Below, in pieces: positions 8,535 through 53,955 of a stretch of 64,000 nt of DNA (within the stretch, counting starts at the first letter, position 1; the number at the start of each line of letters is the position of its first letter). The DNA is taken from NCBI RefSeq assembly GCF_000422765.1, contig NZ_AUGR01000021.1, positions 1-64,000 of the forward strand, written 5' to 3'. The DNA is from Neptunomonas japonica DSM 18939 (lineage in GTDB: Bacteria > Pseudomonadota > Gammaproteobacteria > Pseudomonadales > Balneatricaceae). Below the pieces are notes generated by a model. The model searched no databases. It was not told the origin of the DNA and saw only the letters and a program-made list of their open reading frames with translations. Position numbers and translations under genes: made by a program.

Positions 8535-9131
8535 ATGACTAAAACAATACAGTATTACTTCGTTTTAAATTCGCCTTGGAGTTATTTTTCGGGCTCTCGT
8601 TTAGCCTATATAGCTAAAGATAAGAACGCCACAATAGATCTAAAGCCAGTAGTGCTTAGTGAGCTATTTCCACGTACCGGTGGGCAGCCTTTAAAGCAAC
8701 GTTCTGAGCAGCGCCAAGCTTATCGAATAATAGAGTTACAGCGTTGGAGCCGCCAGCTAGGCTTGCCTATTCATCTTGAACCAACTTTTTTCCCTGTTGA
8801 TGAAAGCCTTGCCGTACGTACGGTGCTTGCTGCTATTGAAGGTGATCATGACGCCCTTCAGCTCGTTATTGCATTAGGCGCTTCACTTTGGAGAGATAAT
8901 CTTAATTTAGCCGACGAGCAGGTTATAGCGGATGTATTAGTTGATTTACAGTTACCAGTAACGCTTATTCAGGCTGCAAAAAATCAACAAAGCTACTCTC
9001 AACTGTTAAGCGACAATACGAGTGAGGCTATCTCTCAAGGTGTGTTTGGAGTGCCATCGTTTATTGTTGAGTCAGAACTTTTTTGGGGACAAGACCGATT
9101 AGATTTTCTTGAGCAAGCGCTTACTGATTAA
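8535..9131 (+). CDS. 2-hydroxychromene-2-carboxylate isomerase / DsbA-family (kappa GST-like) protein
   Basis: A 198-residue cytoplasmic thioredoxin-fold protein of the HCCA isomerase/kappa-class GST group. The N-terminal NSPWSYFSG contains the conserved Ser used for glutathione activation in this group (about residue 13), and the cis-Pro motif is seen in GVFGVPSFIV. The segment ELFWGQDRLDFLEQAL closes the chain as in the family. No naphthalene or aromatic catabolic genes surround it, so a general glutathione-dependent isomerase or oxidoreductase role is more likely than true HCCA isomerisation. Its Shine-Dalgarno sequence is weak. Confidence 0.8.
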   Translation: MTKTIQYYFVLNSPWSYFSGSRLAYIAKDKNATIDLKPVVLSELFPRTGGQPLKQRSEQRQAYRIIELQRWSRQLGLPIHLEPTFFPVDESLAVRTVLAAIEGDHDALQLVIALGASLWRDNLNLADEQVIADVLVDLQLPVTLIQAAKNQQSYSQLLSDNTSEAISQGVFGVPSFIVESELFWGQDRLDFLEQALTD

Positions 9132-21156: not shown

Positions 21157-22653
21157 ATGACCGTACGTACTCGCGTTGCGCCTTCTCCAACAGGCGATCC
21201 GCATGTAGGCACAGCCTATATTGCACTTTTTAATCTGGCGTTTGCTCGCCAGCACGGTGGGCAGTTTATCTTACGTATAGAAGACACCGACCAAACGCGC
21301 AGTACGGGCGAATCGGAACAGAAGATCTTAGATTCACTTCGCTGGTTAGGTCTTGAGTGGGATGAAGGCCCAGATGTAGGTGGCCCACATGGCCCTTACC
21401 GCCAGAGTGAGCGTAAAGGTATGTATGCCCAGTATGCACACGACCTAGTAGAAAAAGGCCATGCATTTCATTGCTACCGTACCTCAGAAGAGCTGGACGA
21501 ACTACGTACTGCTCGCCGTGCTGCTGGTGGACACACCGCACTAAAACAAAGTGACTTAGCGTTACCTGCTGATGAAGTAGAAAAGCGCAGAGCTGCGGGT
21601 GCACCGTTTGTTATTCGTATGGTTGTGCCTGAAGGCGAGGGTGTTTGTGTCGTTGATGATTTGCTGCGTGGCACTATCGAATTGGAGTGGGGCATGGTCG
21701 ATGCACAGATCCTGCTTAAATCTGATGGTATGCCGACTTACCATTTAGCTAACGTCGTTGATGATCATCTCATGGAGATCACACATGTGATCCGTGGTGA
21801 AGAGTGGATTAACTCGGCTCCTAAGCACAAATTGCTGTATCAGTACTTTGGCTGGGAAATGCCGGTTCTGTGCCACATGCCATTATTGCGTAACCCAGAT
21901 AAGTCCAAGCTATCTAAGCGTAAAAATCCAACCAGTATCTTGTATTACCAGCGTATGGGTTATATGGCAGAAGCACTGCTGAATTACCTCGGCCGTATGG
22001 GGTGGTCGATGCCGGATGAGAGCGAAAAATTCAGCCGTGAAGAGATGTTCTCCAATTTTGATATTACGCGTGTCTCTTTAGGCGGCCCGGTTTTTGATCA
22101 AGAAAAACTTAGCTGGCTTAACGGTGTATGGCTACGTGAAGACCTTAACCCAGAGCAGTTTGCTGCTAAATATCAGGAGTGGGCACTTAATCCACAGTAC
22201 TTGATGCAGATTTTGCCACTGATCCAGCAACGTGTAGAAAAGTTCTCTGATGTAGCACCGCTAGCGGGCTTCTTCCTATCGGGTATGTTACCGATTAAAG
22301 AATCAGACTTTGAACACAAAAGCGTAACGCTAGATGATGCTAAGCGCATTTTGCAATTTAGTGTTTGGTTCTTGGATACAGAAAGCAACTGGGATAAAGA
22401 CCACCTGTTCGCACAGCTCAAACAGCTAGCAGAGCAGATGGGCTACAAGCTACGTGACTTCTTGTTCCCGTTGTTTATCGCCATTGCGGGTACTAACCAA
22501 ACGGTTTCTGTCATGGACTCTATGTCGATTCTTGGCCCAGATATGAGCCGTGCGCGTTTGCGCCACGCGGTTAATCTATTGGGCGGCCCATCGAAGAAAG
22601 AAGCAAAACGATGGGAAAAAGAGTTTAGAGAGGTTGTTGCTGGTATCGAGTAG
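21157..22653 (+). CDS. gltX: Glutamyl-tRNA synthetase
   Basis: A class I aminoacyl-tRNA synthetase of about 498 residues that charges tRNA-Glu. The HIGH-type motif is [13 protein letters not shown] (about residues 9-21), and the KMSKS-type loop is SKLSKRKNP (about 250). An in-frame start at 21073 would add 28 unlikely residues; the ATG at 21157 is preceded by GGCAGGA. The length and intact C-terminal anticodon-binding region suggest a normal housekeeping enzyme. A terminator follows. Confidence 0.97.
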
Positions 22654-27520: not shown

Positions 27521-29614
27521 ATGAAAATTAAAAATAGAATTGCCTTAGCTACCGGTGCATGTCTTACGCTTTCTTCCGTTATTTTATTAAGCGTTGTTGC
27601 TTGGAAAAATAATGAAGTAGAAGCCCAAACAGTAGCTCTGGTTAGCCAAGAACTAACAGATAAAGCTCGTGAACAACTATCTACCTTGTCTGATGCTCAA
27701 GCAGGAAAAACTGCAGCCGAGCTGAATAAAGCGCTATATGTTGCTAAGAGCATGGCAGACACTATGGGTAGTTTCATCAGCCAAAATGGACGAGATACTC
27801 AGCGGCAACCTTTTTATGAATATACCAAAGACGTCCTTGAGCAAAACACGAACGTCATGGGAACCTATATTGCGTGGAAAAAGAATGCGGTAGATGGTAA
27901 AGATCAAGATTTTATCGGTAACAAGCATACTTTTGAAAACGGGCAATTTGCACCCTATTGGTTTCGTAATGGTGATGGCAGTTTAGGTTATCGACCGTTA
28001 AACCTTACAAAAGTTTATGCAGATATAGAAAAAGGAAGTACCGATTCTGCATGGTATACCTGCCCTTTGGAGACAACTAAAACTTGCTTAGCCGAGCCTT
28101 ATTCGTGGGAAGCGGGGGGGCGTACCATTGTCGGCACATCGATTACCTTGCCAGTGTTAGTTGATGGCAAAGTTAAAGGTATTACAGGCATTGATATGGA
28201 GCTTAGTTTTTTAAGCAAGCTGGTAAACGAAGCAGATCAATCACTTTACTCTGGCCAAGGGCAAGTTCTATTGATCAGTAATACAGGGCTTGTCGCAGCC
28301 GATTCAGATGGACAGCACGCTCTTGCTAAAGTCTATCAAGGTGAGCTGAAAGAGCAGTTATTAACGTTAGTTGCCAATGGTGAGAAACAAATACTGCAAG
28401 CTGATGGGCACTTATGGGCAGTTCAACCTATTCGCCTTGATAGTGTTAATACTCCTTGGGCTGTTGTTATTAACTTGGATGAATCAGTCGTATTAGCGGG
28501 TGCGATCAAGACCCAGCAATCCATGTCTAAACAATTTAATGAAAGCCTAGTAACATCTATTATCATAGGTTTAATCATCACGGGCTTAGGTATCATCTTA
28601 CTCACCATTATTGCTCAGAGTATCGCTGCTCCTATTCGTCGTGCAGCAGATATGATTAACCAACTCGTCTCCCACGATGGTGATCTTACACAACGACTGA
28701 CATTGCAAAGAGATGATGAGGTAGGTGACTTAGCCAATGGTATTGATGCCTTTATCGAAAAGACCCATGTCATTGTCAAAGATATAGCCGCTGAGATGGT
28801 AAATGTTGAACGCTCAACCTGTCGAGCTTCTGATATATCTAGTAATAGTGCTCTAGGTATTGAGAAGCAACGGGCTGAAGTGGATCAGATTGCTGCAGCC
28901 ATTACCCAGTTGGCTGCATCTGCTAGTGAAGTTGCGCAAATTGCGATAACCACTGCCGATTCATCCAGTGAAGCTAAAGGCTCTGTCGATAGTAGCGCCA
29001 TGAATCTTGACGAGAGTACCAGCTCTATTCGTGAGCTTTCTGAACAGATTAGTAACACAACAGAGCTGATGGATCTGCTTGCTCAAGACAGTAACAATAT
29101 CAGCCAAATCGTAGATGCTATTCAAGGTATTTCCGAACAAACTAACCTTTTGGCGCTAAACGCTGCGATTGAAGCGGCCCGTGCAGGTGAGTCTGGTCGA
29201 GGCTTTTCCGTTGTTGCCGATGAAGTGCGTAACCTGGCATCAAAAACACAACAGTCGACAGGAGAAATCCAGACACTGATCGATAAACTGCAGGGACGTG
29301 CTAAAAGTGCAGTGCATGCGATGCAAAAAGGGAATGAGCAATCAGGTAACTGCTTAGTATTGTCAGAAGAAGCCTCTCAACATTTGCAACATGTTGTTAC
29401 AGCGATTTCTGAAATAGATAACATGACTACTCAAATGGCGAGTGTGGTTGAAGAGCAAAGAGCGGTTACAGAAGATATCACTCGTAACATTGTTAATATA
29501 AGTGATGAGACCAATTTAGTATCAGACGGTGTTGCTGAGGCTAACCAGGAAAGCCAATCACTGCTCAGTCTGGTGAAAAAACTGGAAAACCAACTGGGTC
29601 GCTTCCGCTACTAA
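27521..29614 (+). CDS. Methyl-accepting chemotaxis protein with Cache sensor
   Basis: A 697-residue chemoreceptor. The first membrane helix is at about residues 8-28. A long periplasmic double-Cache-type domain (about 35-340) contains YIAWKKNAVDGKDQ, the WY-rich segment with SAWYTCPLE, and VKGITGIDMELSFL. The second helix is at about 345-366, followed by HAMP and the signalling domain with its tip [18 protein letters not shown] near residue 538. Receptors of this build often bind amino acids or other small organic compounds directly. No C-terminal CheR-docking motif is seen (it ends LGRFRY). Confidence 0.93.
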   Translation: MKIKNRIALATGACLTLSSVILLSVVAWKNNEVEAQTVALVSQELTDKAREQLSTLSDAQAGKTAAELNKALYVAKSMADTMGSFISQNGRDTQRQPFYEYTKDVLEQNTNVMGTYIAWKKNAVDGKDQDFIGNKHTFENGQFAPYWFRNGDGSLGYRPLNLTKVYADIEKGSTDSAWYTCPLETTKTCLAEPYSWEAGGRTIVGTSITLPVLVDGKVKGITGIDMELSFLSKLVNEADQSLYSGQGQVLLISNTGLVAADSDGQHALAKVYQGELKEQLLTLVANGEKQILQADGHLWAVQPIRLDSVNTPWAVVINLDESVVLAGAIKTQQSMSKQFNESLVTSIIIGLIITGLGIILLTIIAQSIAAPIRRAADMINQLVSHDGDLTQRLTLQRDDEVGDLANGIDAFIEKTHVIVKDIAAEMVNVERSTCRASDISSNSALGIEKQRAEVDQIAAAITQLAASASEVAQIAITTADSSSEAKGSVDSSAMNLDESTSSIRELSEQISNTTELMDLLAQDSNNISQIVDAIQGISEQTNLLALNAAIEAARAGESGRGFSVVADEVRNLASKTQQSTGEIQTLIDKLQGRAKSAVHAMQKGNEQSGNCLVLSEEASQHLQHVVTAISEIDNMTTQMASVVEEQRAVTEDITRNIVNISDETNLVSDGVAEANQESQSLLSLVKKLENQLGRFRY

Positions 29615-29709: not shown

Positions 29710-31473
29710 TTAATGTTTGTTAAAGTAGTCTATGCAGTCTTTTTCTGAAAGGGCTTTGCTGTGGTAGTAACCTTGAAAAATAGTGCAGCCTAGATCAACG
29801 AGCCTTTCTCGTTGTTCAATTGTTTCTACATATTCGGCAACAATGTCAATTTGTTGCGATCGACCAAGTTCGGCTATTGTATGGATAATATTTGAGTTGG
29901 CCTCATTTACAAGAACGTCAACAGTGAGTGATCCATCAATTTTAAGCGTGTGTACTTTAAATCTGCGCATATATAACAGTGACGAGTGACCCATTCCAAA
30001 ATCATCCATCGCTAAACGTATTCCCATGTTAGATAATTTCGAAAGTGTTTCATTCACTGTGGGCGTATCGTAGATTGTATGAGATTCAGTGATTTCAAGT
30101 TCGATATCTTGCGGAGCTAAAGAATATTTTTGTAATGTATTTGAAATTAGGGTCGGCAGTTCTTTATCCAGTAGCTGTAATGGCGATATATTAATTGCCA
30201 TGTTTATGTTGTAACCCAGAGTTTTCCAACGAGCCGTGCAGGCGCAAGCGTTTTCTATCACCCAGGCGCCTAGTCTGTTAATTTCGTTATTCTCTTCTGC
30301 TAAGTTTACAGCTAGTAATGGTGGTAAGTTGCCATGCCTTTCATGTTTCCATCGGAGCAGTGCTTCGACTCCGACAATTTGTCCTTTAATGTTGTGCTTT
30401 GGCTGGTAAGCTAAAGATAGCTTGTCATTTTCTAAATCAGACTTCAGTTCTGTTAATAGCCCTCTTGCAATCAGCCCTATATGGTCCTGTCGAACTGACA
30501 CCGTTATTTTTTGCTCATTTGTCTGAATTACTTTTGCGGCCTTAGCAAAGGATACCTTTTGAAGTTGCAGGCGTTTTTTTTCAGCCTTTTTAACAAACGG
30601 AATGTATAGCAGGGTACCGATAACAATTTCTGTAAATTGAAACAAGGCGCCATGCCATGAACCGGTTATTATCCATCCTGAAATAATAGGAGGGGTGGTC
30701 CAAGGAATTGATATGGGTAGAAAAACTAAAAATCCCAGTTGAACCGACAGTACCGTTATCACACTGAACAGTACTGGTATTCCTATGAACGGGATTAAAT
30801 AGGAAGGGTTAAGTACTAGTGGTAATCCATATAAAACGGGTTCGTTAATATTGAAGATCGAAGGTAGTATGGATATTTGAGCAATTTTTCTTTGTTGCCC
30901 TTCTTTCACAACTAGTGCTATCGCTATCAATAAACTCATAGTTGCACCGGCGCCACCGAGTAGCACAAAATTGTTTAGTAAAGGGCGTGATGCAAAGTTC
31001 TCGTTATAGGCTAATTGAGTTAAATCAAAAAAATCTCTGGCGTACGTATCTAATATGTAACCGCCATGAACGCCTAAGTACCAAAAAATTTGGTTAATTA
31101 ATGTCACTAAGCTATTTAAAACTAGCGCAGAGTACTCACTATCTTGAAGTAGATTAATAACAGGGAGAAAAAGGTGTTCATCCAGTGGAGGGGTTTTAGA
31201 GAGTAATATAGAAATAACTAATATTAATAGGCCAGTAAATATAATAGGTACGCTCATTTTAATCGAATTATATACTGTTAAATCGGTATCGTATGGCATA
31301 TCAAACCAATCTAGTGATCGACTTTTAATGACTGTAAATAATACCTCAGTGGTGACAATTCCAATAATAATGGCAGGTAATACGGAGCTCTGTCCCATAG
31401 CGTCATAGGTTAGTGAACCGGTGCCCTCTAAAAACAATATAAAGTTCATGAAAGCTGATATTCCAACCATCAA
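29710..31473 (-). CDS. PTS EIIC-like membrane domain fused to EAL phosphodiesterase (5' part interrupted)
   Basis: A 587-residue open frame. The N-terminal membrane half (about 1-310) resembles EIIC of the lactose/cellobiose PTS family, seen in FNINEPVLYGLPLVLNPSYL. The C-terminal half (about 340-585) is an EAL c-di-GMP phosphodiesterase whose key residues are present: GVEALLRW, NIS, LEITES, MDDFG, LKIDG, VET and QGYY. No other PTS components are nearby, so the membrane part is probably a sensor rather than a transporter. The frame continues upstream without a shift to an ATG at 31761 but is cut by TAA at 31588-31590. The annotated start, a TTG-ATG in mid-domain, is therefore probably not the original one. 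Confidence 0.8.
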   Translation of the reverse strand: MMVGISAFMNFILFLEGTGSLTYDAMGQSSVLPAIIIGIVTTEVLFTVIKSRSLDWFDMPYDTDLTVYNSIKMSVPIIFTGLLILVISILLSKTPPLDEHLFLPVINLLQDSEYSALVLNSLVTLINQIFWYLGVHGGYILDTYARDFFDLTQLAYNENFASRPLLNNFVLLGGAGATMSLLIAIALVVKEGQQRKIAQISILPSIFNINEPVLYGLPLVLNPSYLIPFIGIPVLFSVITVLSVQLGFLVFLPISIPWTTPPIISGWIITGSWHGALFQFTEIVIGTLLYIPFVKKAEKKRLQLQKVSFAKAAKVIQTNEQKITVSVRQDHIGLIARGLLTELKSDLENDKLSLAYQPKHNIKGQIVGVEALLRWKHERHGNLPPLLAVNLAEENNEINRLGAWVIENACACTARWKTLGYNINMAINISPLQLLDKELPTLISNTLQKYSLAPQDIELEITESHTIYDTPTVNETLSKLSNMGIRLAMDDFGMGHSSLLYMRRFKVHTLKIDGSLTVDVLVNEANSNIIHTIAELGRSQQIDIVAEYVETIEQRERLVDLGCTIFQGYYHSKALSEKDCIDYFNKH

Positions 31474-31587
31474 AGGTGAAATTTTACTGGCGCTAGGAAG
31501 GCTTGAGTTTAAACGTAAGGTAAGGTGAACAGAAACCGCAATCGCTAGAGCACAACTTAAAATGCCATGAGAAGAGTTGATGGCTAT

Positions 31588-31761
31588 TTATAAGTGTTCA
31601 ACCCAGGTGCTTCCAAATAAACCTATCATCAAGTCTTGATAGCCCTGATAAGGGAAGTGAAGCAGCAGGATTGAAATGACGCCAAAAAATGTTAGCGGTA
31701 ATAGGGTGATGAAACCATCTCGGATGGAGTATAGCCATACAGAACCCCTGTTATTCGTCAT
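31588..31761 (-). pseudogene. 5' fragment of the EIIC-EAL gene ending at an in-frame TAA
   Basis: From the ATG at 31761 (AAGGA ribosome site) 57 codons can be read, starting MTNNRGSVWLYSIRDG and including a hydrophobic helix with FFGVISILLL. They end at TAA (31590-31588). Past the stop the same frame goes on with INSSHGILSCALAIAV and reaches the called EIIC-EAL frame with no frameshift. The complete gene would encode 683 residues. One base change explains the break. A sequencing error is also possible. Confidence 0.8.
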
Positions 31762-32062
31762 ACGATCCTTTTATGAAAACTAAATAAGAAAGGCTGTTTG
31801 AAATACATTTTTATCAGGAAAAAAGTTATGCTGCAAATATCCACAATTTTTATATAGAGTTTTCTTGATGGTTTTTTTATTTAGTGGTCATAAAATTGTA
31901 AGCCAATAGCTAGCATCTCTTGAGTTTTCATTGTGGCTCTACTAGAGAAGGTGTGACTTTTTAAAGCAAGATTCGGGTCGATTCTTTTCTGCTAGGTTCT
32001 TATTATCTACTCTATATTCCATTGATAAATTCGTAGCATGTTAGCTGGAGACGCGATGCATC
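31762..32062. other. 301-base intergenic region
   Basis: AT-rich DNA between the divergent EIIC-EAL and ada-like genes. I see no RNA gene, repeat or further frame. Promoters for both directions must lie here, but I cannot point to good -35/-10 pairs. Confidence 0.4.
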
Positions 32063-32908
32063 ATGATTGATCAAGACAGTATGAATTACACTCGCATTGC
32101 TGAGGCAATCGCATATATAAAAGATAACTTTAAAGAGCAGCCTTCTTTGAATGAAGTTGCAGCGGCAATTAGCCTTAGTCCGTTTCATTTTCAACGGCTG
32201 TTTTCTGATTGGGCTGGTGTGAGCCCTAAAAAATTCATGCAATATATCAGCATTGAACATGCAAAAGGGCTACTTAAAGATCAGCACTTGAGCTTGCTTG
32301 ATACAGCTTATGAAACAGGGCTTTCAGGTACCAGTCGTTTGCATGATTTGTTCATCAATATAGAAGGGATGACACCAGGAGAATTCAAAAAAGGAGGCGA
32401 CGCCCTGCAGATAAACTACAGTTTTTCGCAGACTCCTTTTGGCCAAGTTATTGTTGCATCCACGGGAAAAGGTGTTTGCCATATAGCCTTTGAAGAAAAT
32501 GCAGAGCAAGCTTTAACAACGCTTAAGCAGCGCTTCCCTTATGCCTTGTATCAACAAAGCACTGATAAATTACAACAGGATGCCTTGTTAATTTTTCAAA
32601 AGGATTGGCAGCAATTAGATAAAATTAAGCTCCATCTTCATGGCACTGCATTCCAATTAAAAGTGTGGGATAGCTTACTTAAAATACCCAAAGGACGCCT
32701 TGCTAGCTACGGAGAGATTGCAACTGCCATTGGTAACCCTAAAGCCTCTCGTGCTGTTGGTACGGCTATTGGTAGTAACCCAGTGGCTTTTCTTATCCCT
32801 TGTCATCGCGTTATTCAAGCCAGTGGTAGTGTTGGTGGTTATATGTGGGGATCTACCCGAAAATCTGCCATTATCGGTTGGGAAGCATCCCAAAAAGCGA
32901 CTTTATAG
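32063..32908 (+). CDS. Ada-like regulator/O6-alkylguanine-DNA methyltransferase without the N-terminal Cys domain
   Basis: A 281-residue two-domain protein. An AraC-type helix-turn-helix (about 10-110, LSPFHFQRLFSDWAGVSPKKF) is followed by an O6-methylguanine-DNA methyltransferase domain (about 115-275) with the suicide cysteine in IPCHRVIQASG and the upstream LASYGEIATAIG. The zinc/phosphotriester-repair domain that opens E. coli Ada is missing, so activation by methylphosphotriester transfer is not expected. Such short Ada-type proteins are common. It is followed after 34 bases by an AlkB-like dioxygenase gene, which makes an alkylation-repair operon. Confidence 0.92.
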   Translation: MIDQDSMNYTRIAEAIAYIKDNFKEQPSLNEVAAAISLSPFHFQRLFSDWAGVSPKKFMQYISIEHAKGLLKDQHLSLLDTAYETGLSGTSRLHDLFINIEGMTPGEFKKGGDALQINYSFSQTPFGQVIVASTGKGVCHIAFEENAEQALTTLKQRFPYALYQQSTDKLQQDALLIFQKDWQQLDKIKLHLHGTAFQLKVWDSLLKIPKGRLASYGEIATAIGNPKASRAVGTAIGSNPVAFLIPCHRVIQASGSVGGYMWGSTRKSAIIGWEASQKATL

Positions 32909-33591: not shown

Positions 33592-34335
33592 TTACGCGCT
33601 ATAAACAAGATTAATGCCGATGGTGATTAGTAAAGAAAAGGCAATTCTACGCATGTTCTTGTTGCTTAAAGGAGGAGGGTAATACTTCCCTAATAAGGTA
33701 AATGCTGCGACAACGGGTAAGCAGAGTAAGCTTGTCCAAAGCATTTCAAAGCTGAGCTGACCCTGAATACCTAAAACACATAATCGTAAAATGTTCATGA
33801 CCAGGAATGCGGTAATTAAGCATAAGCGAATCGTTTGTAATGGTAATGGCTGGCGATAGAATTGATAAACCAACGGTGGGCCAGCGATACTGAATAAGCC
33901 TCCAAATAAGCCAGCGGCAAAGCCCGCAGCGGTGAAAGATAAGTGACAGCTACGTTCTTTTTTAGGTTCGGGCTTAAGTAAAATAAAAAGTCCTCCTCCG
34001 ATGATAGTAATGCCTAAAATCCACTGTAATACCTGTGTAAATTCGTTGCTTAAATAGCTTAATAACATTACGCCAAGCACTAATGCAGGGAATAGCCCTA
34101 AAAGGGAATACAGCAAAGCAGGTTTATCAAGCGATTTTAGGTTTCCGTATAAGGCAATAGGGCCGTTGGCAAGCATCAAAAAACTGATGATTACAGATGA
34201 AAAAGTGACTGATGCTAGCTCAAACTGTACAACGAAACCCAATATGATCATGCCTAAAGCAAAGCCGGTAACGGTCTGCACATAGGTACCCAAAGCAACT
34301 GTCAGCAAAAAAGGCAGTAACTGTTCAAGCTGCAT
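33592..34335 (-). CDS. TauE/SafE (TSUP) family permease
   Basis: A 247-residue membrane protein with about eight hydrophobic helices. It shows the TSUP opening GTYVQTVTGFALGMIILGF and the mid-protein repeat AAGFAAGLFGGLFSIAGPPL. Family members export sulfite, sulfoacetate or other organosulfur anions. No sulfur metabolism genes lie nearby, so the substrate is undefined. It is transcribed alone, convergent with alkB. Confidence 0.86.
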   Translation of the reverse strand: MQLEQLLPFLLTVALGTYVQTVTGFALGMIILGFVVQFELASVTFSSVIISFLMLANGPIALYGNLKSLDKPALLYSLLGLFPALVLGVMLLSYLSNEFTQVLQWILGITIIGGGLFILLKPEPKKERSCHLSFTAAGFAAGLFGGLFSIAGPPLVYQFYRQPLPLQTIRLCLITAFLVMNILRLCVLGIQGQLSFEMLWTSLLCLPVVAAFTLLGKYYPPPLSNKNMRRIAFSLLITIGINLVYSA

Positions 34336-51582: not shown

Positions 51583-53106
51583 CTATACATAGCCTTGAGT
51601 TCTGTGTGCACCAGGTGCGCTAATGGGAAGCTTGAAATTCAGTGTTACACCCATATTTATTTTACTATTAATATCAACAGTTCCACCGAGAATGGTTGTT
51701 GTTAAATTATAGACTAGATTTAGCCCTAAGCCGGAACCTCCATATCCTAACTTCGTTGTAAAAAACGGGTCGAAGGCTTTCTCGCACTCTGCTGGAGACA
51801 TTCCATTGCCATTATCGGAAATGATAAGTGATAAGTACTTCTCATTAATAAGGTTTGCTTCTATACGGATTAAGCCGCTACTTTTTCCTTCGAAGCCATG
51901 CAATAACGTATTGTTAAAACAGTTGGTAATGATCTGCCCTAGTGGTCCTGGGTAGCTATCTAGACTGATATCAGGTGGTACAGATACTTCTATGTCAAAG
52001 GGAGTGTGCTTAATTAGAGGGTTTAGTGTGTAGATTATCTCGTCGATGACCTGCTTCAGATCAAATTTACGACGTTTTTCGCTAGTCTGATCAACCGCCA
52101 CGTTTTTAAAGTTTCGTATTTGTTTGGCCGCTGTTTCTAAGTTTCGTTCCAAGATGGTGGATGCTTCAGTAATGGACTCGATAAAGCTATCCAGTGCGCT
52201 CTTTGTTAGGGCGCCTGATTCAATATCTTTGCTGATGTTACGAGTGATGTCTGAAACAGTGGTGGCTACTGTGAGGCTATTGCCTAGTGGGGTATTAATT
52301 TCATGCGCTATACCAGCGACTAAGCTACCAAGCGAAGCCATTTTTTCAGAATGAATCAGGTTGGTTTGTGCCTCCTTAAGGCTGGATAAAGCATTTTCTG
52401 TTTTCAAATGTGCTTCTTTTAAATCGGCTTCTATCTCGGTTTGCCTGGCTAAGTTACGGTTATAATTACTAATTAACTGACCAAGTTCGTCGGTCGAGTC
52501 CCAGTTAACTGGGACTCGTTGACCTGTTTGTCGATAATACTTCAACGATTTAGAAACACGTGATAAAGGAGTAATGATTGTGCTGCGAAAGGCAACAGAG
52601 GTAATAATGATTAGTGTGATGAAGAGTGTTAGGGATAGCGCTGTTAATGTTATTAGCTGTTTGGTTATGCTGCTCCATTGCGTAGCATTTTTTGTATAAA
52701 GATACACTATCCCTAGACTTCTACTCGTATTACGCAAATCAAGATAAATAATGGGGCTGTTAAATTCTAATACTTCTTCTGAAGATAGGTCGTTGCATTC
52801 TCCTTCCATAATTAATGGTGTTATATCTGAGTCTTGCTCAAGTTTGATACAAATAATATCAGAAGCATCTAATGTCGTTTTTAGAATATTTACAGATAAT
52901 TTAGTGGAAAGTTGCCATACGGGCTCAGTTAGTAATCGAGCTAGGTTATCAGTTTTTTCTTGGACTAGCTGATTGTGGGATTTTTTTGCATTGTTGAGTT
53001 CAAAATAAGACAGTGTAACCAAAAAAAATAATGATACTAAAAAGAAAGCAGGTAGTATTTTTAATAAAAATCGAGAGTTTACCGTGTCATTTGGCTTTAA
53101 TCTCAT
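51583..53106 (-). CDS. Sensor histidine kinase
   Basis: A 507-residue membrane kinase. Two membrane helices (about 11-34 and 146-170) flank a periplasmic domain of about 110 residues. A HAMP-like stretch and a coiled coil lead to a phosphorylation site around His268 in [13 protein letters not shown]. The ATPase domain (about 380-500) has [20 protein letters not shown] and the [13 protein letters not shown] lid. It lies between the periplasmic binding protein and the REC-GGDEF-EAL regulator and is probably the input for the latter. The kinase class resembles those that act on c-di-GMP output proteins. Confidence 0.92.
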
Positions 53107-53127
53107 ACATATTCCAATAAGTGGGAA

Positions 53128-53955
53128 TTATGGCGTTTGTTGCTTATTGGCCCAGAGTGCATGAGCACGCTTTAATAAAACCTCAGCTCTATTTTCTTGT
53201 ATAAATTTATTTAAAGTCTTTGATATTTTAGCTCTCAGGCTAGGTGAGTTGCATGGAGATTTTTTGGACATTGTTAGATAAAGCTTTTGGCGGGTGATCT
53301 CTATGGGCATGGTTTGTAGGTTGTTAACACTCAGTTTCTGTGCGTAAGCTTTTCCTGGGTTTTCTTCATAAATAAGGTAATCGACTCGGTTGGCACTAAG
53401 CATACGAAGTCCTTGGTCAAGGCTTGCTACTTCTTCAATATTGAGCTGTTGCTTAGCGTATTCATCAAATTCTTGACCAAAACTGTTATTGATAACAGTG
53501 ACCCCATGGTAGCTTTTTAGATCTTTCCATTGTGTGTATGGGAATGGGTTTTTGGTGTTCATCCAGACAGCAGTTTTAGTGAGCATCATATCTGGGTAGA
53601 TGTAATCCATGTAATGGGTTCGCGGCAGTGTAAAAAAAGCTCCAGCTATCATATCAATTCGACCTGCTGCAACATCTTCTTGTACGCGTCCCCAAGGGCC
53701 GCTGTAAACTAGTTCAATCTCTGTATTTATCTCTTGTGATAACTCTTTCAAAAGCATAGCAATAGCGCCATGTAAATAAACTGACTTATCCGAGTGCCAT
53801 AGGTAAGGTGGGTATTCAGCATTACCACTGGCTCGGATTAGCTTACAAGAGGCAGTTTCATTAGAAGAAGTGTTTAAAACGGAATCGGCTTCGCTAGCAA
53901 ACGCCGATAGTGTTAAAACACTAGAAAGCATTATGATTAGTGGAAGTAGTTTCAA
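53128..53955 (-). CDS. Periplasmic solute-binding protein of the amino-acid type (SBP_bac_3)
   Basis: A 275-residue secreted protein with a signal peptide (about 1-20, ending LTLSAFA) and a bilobal binding fold (ASGNAEYPPYLW near the N terminus, then AGRIDMIAGAFFTLPR). No ABC permease or ATPase is adjacent. Instead it is the first gene of a unit with a histidine kinase (21 bases downstream) and a c-di-GMP regulator. It may therefore present a ligand to the sensor kinase rather than serve transport. Ligand unknown; amino acids or small polar compounds are typical for the family. Confidence 0.85.
   Translation of the reverse strand: MKLLPLIIMLSSVLTLSAFASEADSVLNTSSNETASCKLIRASGNAEYPPYLWHSDKSVYLHGAIAMLLKELSQEINTEIELVYSGPWGRVQEDVAAGRIDMIAGAFFTLPRTHYMDYIYPDMMLTKTAVWMNTKNPFPYTQWKDLKSYHGVTVINNSFGQEFDEYAKQQLNIEEVASLDQGLRMLSANRVDYLIYEENPGKAYAQKLSVNNLQTMPIEITRQKLYLTMSKKSPCNSPSLRAKISKTLNKFIQENRAEVLLKRAHALWANKQQTP

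Follow-up and report, generated by a model that had tools for sequence, protein, structure and literature searches.

The gene described here lies on the minus strand of the window, by which we mean the whole 64,000-nucleotide stretch of Neptunomonas japonica DSM 18939 that was analysed. On one side it converges with a gene for a methyl-accepting chemotaxis protein (MCP; 27521-29614, plus strand), assigned by Pfam, and on the other side it diverges from a gene for an Ada-like protein (32063-32908, plus strand). The names Ada and AlkB that we give to neighbouring genes are our assumption, taken from their sequences rather than from a family search. The reading frame of interest, which encodes a PTS-type EIIC domain joined to an EAL domain, opens with an ATG at 31761 whose computed Shine-Dalgarno energy is -5.4 kcal/mol; of the window's other starts given by the ORF caller, 30 were tried and 10 of these had stronger values. 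It runs for 57 sense codons (31591-31761) and then meets an in-frame TAA at 31588-31590, which is codon 58. Past this TAA the same frame is open for 625 sense codons, up to the terminal TAA at 29710-29712, with no additional stop in between. Upstream of the start, between this gene and that of the Ada-like protein, there is an A+T-rich imperfect inverted repeat (31769-31895) with 23-nt arms that are 87% complementary and 81 nt apart.

The part after the stop (29710-31587, minus strand) comprises the remaining EIIC, a long helical linker, the EAL domain and the terminal TAA, as delineated by Pfam and by invariant catalytic columns. Here PTS_EIIC (PF02378) scored 73.1 bits against a cut-off of 30.7 and EAL (PF00563) scored 197.6 bits against a cut-off of 31.3. 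The 57 residues before the stop, which include the first hydrophobic helix, presumably a membrane helix, gave no match when this part alone was searched against Pfam, and they aligned with positions 13-60 at the N-terminus of TIGR00410 and TIGR00359 (LacE/cellobiose IIC) with an E value of 1.7e-5. These scores are under the whole-protein cut-offs of both models, which is expected because the piece is only 57 residues long, and judged by this homology the 57 codons before the stop are genuine EIIC. A tblastn comparison with the closest relative gave a single unbroken match over residues 4-680 with short in-frame gaps only and, therefore, no change of frame needs to be invoked. An open frame of 625 codons past the stop together with homology on either side of it is more than chance. 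Because of the TAA at 31588-31590 the gene lacks the one uninterrupted reading frame of an EIIC-EAL phosphodiesterase, and it has a mark of a pseudogene in the making, namely, an in-frame stop flanked on either side by sequence homologous to that of intact relatives.

All nine catalytic columns of the EAL domain (E466, N524, E556, E559, D586, D587, K607, E643 and Q663), to which roles in binding metal and substrate are assigned by analogy with RocR-type enzymes, are invariant in the six EIIC-EAL proteins compared. The initial annotation had described, on this strand, a TAA after 57 codons, a frame that continues through EIIC and EAL, the absence of other damage and the retention of all EAL active-site residues, and in each of these respects it was borne out. 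Its figure of 683 residues gives the right extent of the frame but includes the stop as one position, the number of sense codons being 682. Other places in the window look like split genes. At 51583-53955 a gene for an SBP_bac_3 protein has a histidine kinase gene behind it in frame and resembles one; the TAA at 53128 was rejected as a second broken gene because the histidine kinase has its own ATG and the two form a normal pair. The apparent split pairs at 22443 and 56252 were rejected because they are antisense to longer ORFs.

The best explanation of these features is that the gene product would be a c-di-GMP phosphodiesterase bound to the membrane, with a PTS-type EIIC of the LacE/ChbC kind joined to an EAL domain that has its full set of catalytic residues. 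A structure model built with 6 sequences had a mean pLDDT of 66.8 and is good for EAL only; pLDDT was below 60 in 25 of the first 40 ten-residue blocks, and codon 58 falls in this low-confidence region, near the beginning of a predicted helix (53-85). The EIIC part has a single match in the whole genome and is, by this measure, single-copy. The EAL search found 34 places in the genome, the window gene included, and since there are 33 others the loss of this one is probably tolerable. Searches for just two partner families, the EIIB family PF02302 and the lactose/chitobiose EIIA family PF02255, gave no match in the genome, and one HPr-like protein is present. The absence of matches to these two families and the fusion to EAL together suggest that the EIIC part is probably a receptor and not a transporter. 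From this we infer that the orphan EIIC probably detects a sugar at the membrane and controls the activity of EAL.

We examined 29 EIIC-EAL relatives (L009, L010, L030, L033, L034, L037, L049-L067, L069, L078, L103 and L104), of which 25 have one open frame of at least 674 codons from stop to stop. L065 is cut by the end of its contig and is open at the position of the stop in the window. L059 has a frameshift near codon 170 and is likewise open there, while L066 has a frameshift and stops, none of them at that position. L050 has a TAA late in EIIC and its contig begins after the position in question, which makes it uninformative there. Thus, leaving out L050, a stop at the position of codon 58 was found in none of 28 relatives, and only the window copy carries it. 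The genomes of L050, L059 and L066 are drafts of 190, 140 and 210 contigs, respectively, so errors are possible there too, and their breaks could mean either that genes of the EIIC-EAL family are perhaps lost often or that the drafts are in error. A frameshift place common to L059 and L066 was considered and rejected because the local sequences are unlike and L066 has further stops.

Matches to the EIIC part are thinly spread. The remaining 7 genomes of the genus have none and, counting the source genome, a match was present in 15 of 390 genomes of the order, 13 of 116 of the family and 2 of 369 drawn from the class; in family f38 it was present in 8 of 44 genomes. Many of the matches within the order are plain permeases of about 450 residues. 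Scanning contigs with a single EIIC protein as the query yielded no relative (36 stretches, none confirmed). With an alignment as the query, 5 of the best 80 loci were found to encode EIIC-EAL, and the other 75 had no match to the EAL of the read-through query in that frame. Among these best 80 loci the closest named relative is that of Duganella radicis (L067), with 40.6% identity over residues 4-680, and the other carriers are Clostridium viride, a Lachnospiraceae MAG, Chromatium and Thiorhodococcus. EIIC-EAL fusions are sporadic and apparently receptor-like. In Duganella radicis (L067:753-8930) the gene stands between one for a Reg_prop/Y_Y_Y/GGDEF protein and one for an MCP, which is followed by a GH26 glycoside hydrolase. 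An MCP gene adjoins the EIIC-EAL gene both there and in the window, perhaps by chance. With the Duganella protein, the window protein shows 37% identity upstream of the stop, 33% over the remaining EIIC and 50% over the linker and EAL; the corresponding values for the 12 other rows of the alignment are 19-29% upstream of the stop and 24-30% over the remaining EIIC. Since identity before the stop is comparable to that in the remaining EIIC, there has been little or no drift in the N-terminal part.

The same locus was compared in the sister genome G001 and in a second relative, G007. The MCP and Ada genes are collinear with the window in both, the Ada-like protein being 91% identical in G001 and 88% in G007. 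In G001 the flanks are 87-91% identical to the window at the DNA level, and protein identity is 96% for MCP and 92% for AlkB. Between MCP and Ada, however, G001 has a short spacer in place of the EIIC-EAL gene. This spacer holds a degenerate fossil of about 108 nt (L206:7064-7171) that corresponds to a stretch at the EAL end of the gene (29813-29929, minus strand). Its core of 54 nt is 81% identical to window positions 29813-29866 (E value 1.7e-8) and a gapped extension reaches 29929. The local score of the fossil against the gene was 37.5, whereas the maximum in 300 single-base shuffles was 21.5, and when read in the sense of the gene it retains GRSQQ..VA.YVETI with stops upstream. In G007 the site between the same two neighbours is empty and no fossil is detectable in it, the score of 17.0 being reached by 27 of 300 shuffles. 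Because the fossil in G001 lies between the same neighbours, it is most likely that the common ancestor with G001 had the gene at this place and that G001 lost it by a deletion that spared only the degenerate EAL-end stretch. Loss of the gene is, therefore, seen in the lineage, by deletion with a fossil in G001 and as an empty site with no detectable fossil in G007. The collinear block of G001 also lacks the TauE/SafE permease gene found at 33592-34335 of the window; the gap places window positions 33617 and 34560 at 8847 and 8853 of L206, respectively, and no match was found in the G007 stretch L207.

The lack of further damage bears on the age of the stop. For six flanking genes dS between the window and G001 is 0.28-0.60, and a single substitution within the 625 codons would create a stop in 4.9% (0.0489) of cases. 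If the gene had been neutral since the split from G001, 13-27 extra stops would be predicted in the 625 codons, an estimate that assumes uniform substitutions and falls to about half with transitions only, for which the stop-creating share is 2.3% (0.0235). None was observed. This implies that selection acted on the gene during most of the period after the split and that the stop is much younger. We regard the younger age as probable on this reckoning, unless selection still maintains a product that contains the part after the stop, because a restarted or read-through product under selection would show the same lack of other damage.

Taking these results together, we consider it probable that an accessory phosphodiesterase gene with an orphan EIIC has recently been inactivated by a nonsense mutation. 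Of the options raised in the initial annotation, a very recent inactivation is the one best supported, since G001 has a fossil of this gene and there are uninterrupted relatives elsewhere. According to this explanation, the ancestor shared with G001 would have carried the EIIC-EAL gene at the same place, with sugar sensing by EIIC presumably setting the activity of EAL. If the base at 31588-31590 is taken as real, one early nonsense mutation would halt translation after the first hydrophobic helix, and little or no full-length enzyme, and presumably no active product, would be expected. The window would then probably represent an early stage of the loss of an accessory gene that is already far advanced in G001. 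It looks like ordinary gene loss at an early stage.

It is unlikely, though of the alternatives this is the one to be taken most seriously, that the species has an intact gene and that the TAA reflects an error in base calling or assembly, an option also named in the initial annotation, or a variant of the one isolate sequenced. Apart from the TAA the gene shows no defect, and a base-call error or a rare variant would give the same picture in an assembled sequence from one isolate. There is precedent for this, for in one deposited genome a significant proportion of the interrupted coding sequences were sequencing errors, according to the available text of PMC1852416. Against it, the assembly appears to be of good quality (completeness 99.82%, 39 contigs), no internal stop was seen in any of the 34 EAL matches listed (that of the window gene being counted from after the TAA), and none of the six flanking genes is interrupted in either the window or G001. 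Moreover, lone substitution errors are less usual than indel errors, and the loss of the gene in G001 raises the prior for a real mutation.

Slimmer is the chance that an active EAL enzyme is still produced, by restart or by leakage through the stop, and that in its restarted form it would be deaf to sugar. If so, the phosphodiesterase would have been cut loose from sugar control, like the active nonsense-mutated diguanylate cyclases of Shigella. With restart at an internal codon, EAL would be made with only part of EIIC, and the effect of the stop would be to free the enzyme from its sensor and not to destroy it; this appears improbable. The catalytic residues of EAL are intact, as this would require, and there are 14 in-frame start candidates in codons 97-373. 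The nearest (31447-31473, minus strand) are a TTG at 31473 and an ATG at 31470, neither of which has a Shine-Dalgarno sequence, and an ATG at 31449, which is codon 105 and has a computed Shine-Dalgarno energy of -3.3 kcal/mol; a later ATG at codon 275 (30937-30939, minus strand), from which the end of EIIC and EAL would be made, has -4.9 kcal/mol. The energies at codons 105 and 275 are within the range of those of the other genes in the window. On the other hand, the closest in-frame start is 38 codons past the stop and lacks a Shine-Dalgarno sequence (+0.7), any restarted chain would be without at least the first 96 residues, which intact relatives keep, and the part before the stop is about as conserved as the remaining EIIC, so it mattered until recently. 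In Shigella flexneri, nonsense-mutated dgcM gives two products that fit separately translated halves, made without a canonical Shine-Dalgarno sequence, and nonsense-mutated dgcE, dgcQ and dgcN still raise c-di-GMP, as reported in the available text of PMC11327459. As a precedent this is imperfect because dgcQ and dgcM have a Met within 3 codons of the stop (Table 1 of PMC11327459) and because dgcM lowered c-di-GMP in E. coli and did not raise it. The suggestion of an internal restart is, therefore, helped by two ATGs with moderate Shine-Dalgarno energies and hurt by a nearest start that has none, and overall it is weak.

Useful read-through of the TAA, by a suppressor tRNA or by leaky termination, would supply a low dose of the full-length enzyme, and the frame is indeed open and conserved on both sides of the stop. 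Nevertheless, we regard it as highly improbable. ARAGORN read 53 of the 54 tRNA places found in the genome, from 150 of 251 first-look candidates that were scored, and none of the 53 has a stop-codon anticodon; this list is incomplete in that one weak place was uncalled and no tRNA-Ile was named. No stimulatory RNA structure was found in the 121 nt around the stop, which fold no better than shuffled sequences (z 0.79, with 155 of 200 shuffles folding at least as well), and the stop is not conserved in the 28 informative relatives. What keeps read-through, another proposal of the initial annotation, under consideration is again the Shigella precedent: full-length-sized products were seen with nonsense-mutated dgcQ and dgcN, for which the Discussion of PMC11327459 suggests read-through, while in its Results the bands of dgcQ are said to agree with the stop and the Met next to it. 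A switch by phase variation at this TAA, which was also proposed in the initial annotation and has nothing else in its favour, is hardly credible because slippage would shift the frame, yet both sides of the stop share one frame, because no runs of 1-3-base units are visible at the stop, and because neither a repeat family overlapping it nor inverted arms around it were found in 31400-32070.

Recent nonsense inactivation, the explanation that we prefer, would make this locus a small, clear example of the pruning of bacterial c-di-GMP networks, in which one species would carry a single nonsense mutation and a sister species a fossil between the same neighbours. PTS_EIIC is named among the rare domains of c-di-GMP proteins in the available text of PMC8846402 and, therefore, the EIIC-EAL architecture was already known. 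In the literature that our search could reach, we found no published account of the sugar or the activity of any EIIC-EAL protein, and the term 'EIIC-EAL' did not occur. The EIIC-EAL phosphodiesterases of Duganella, Thiorhodococcus, Chromatium, Clostridium viride and Lachnospiraceae have the same domain order as the window protein, a similar length and invariant catalytic columns, and differ from it in having no TAA at codon 58. By sequence, the window protein belongs to the same EIIC family as the LacE/ChbC-type PTS permeases (TIGR00410; structure 3qnq), but unlike them it has a fused EAL, and its genome has no match to the EIIB and EIIA families searched. The degenerate diguanylate cyclases of Shigella flexneri (PMC11327459), as presented in the available text, likewise carry a nonsense mutation ahead of a c-di-GMP output domain that is itself intact, whereas here the output domain is an EAL phosphodiesterase and there is no start codon beside the stop. 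The interrupted coding sequences and nonsense pseudogenes of bacteria described in PMC1852416 and PMC2277376 also show one in-frame stop and otherwise end-to-end homology. What sets the present gene apart from these, as far as the available portions of the two papers describe them, is that a sister genome has a fossil of the same gene in the same place.
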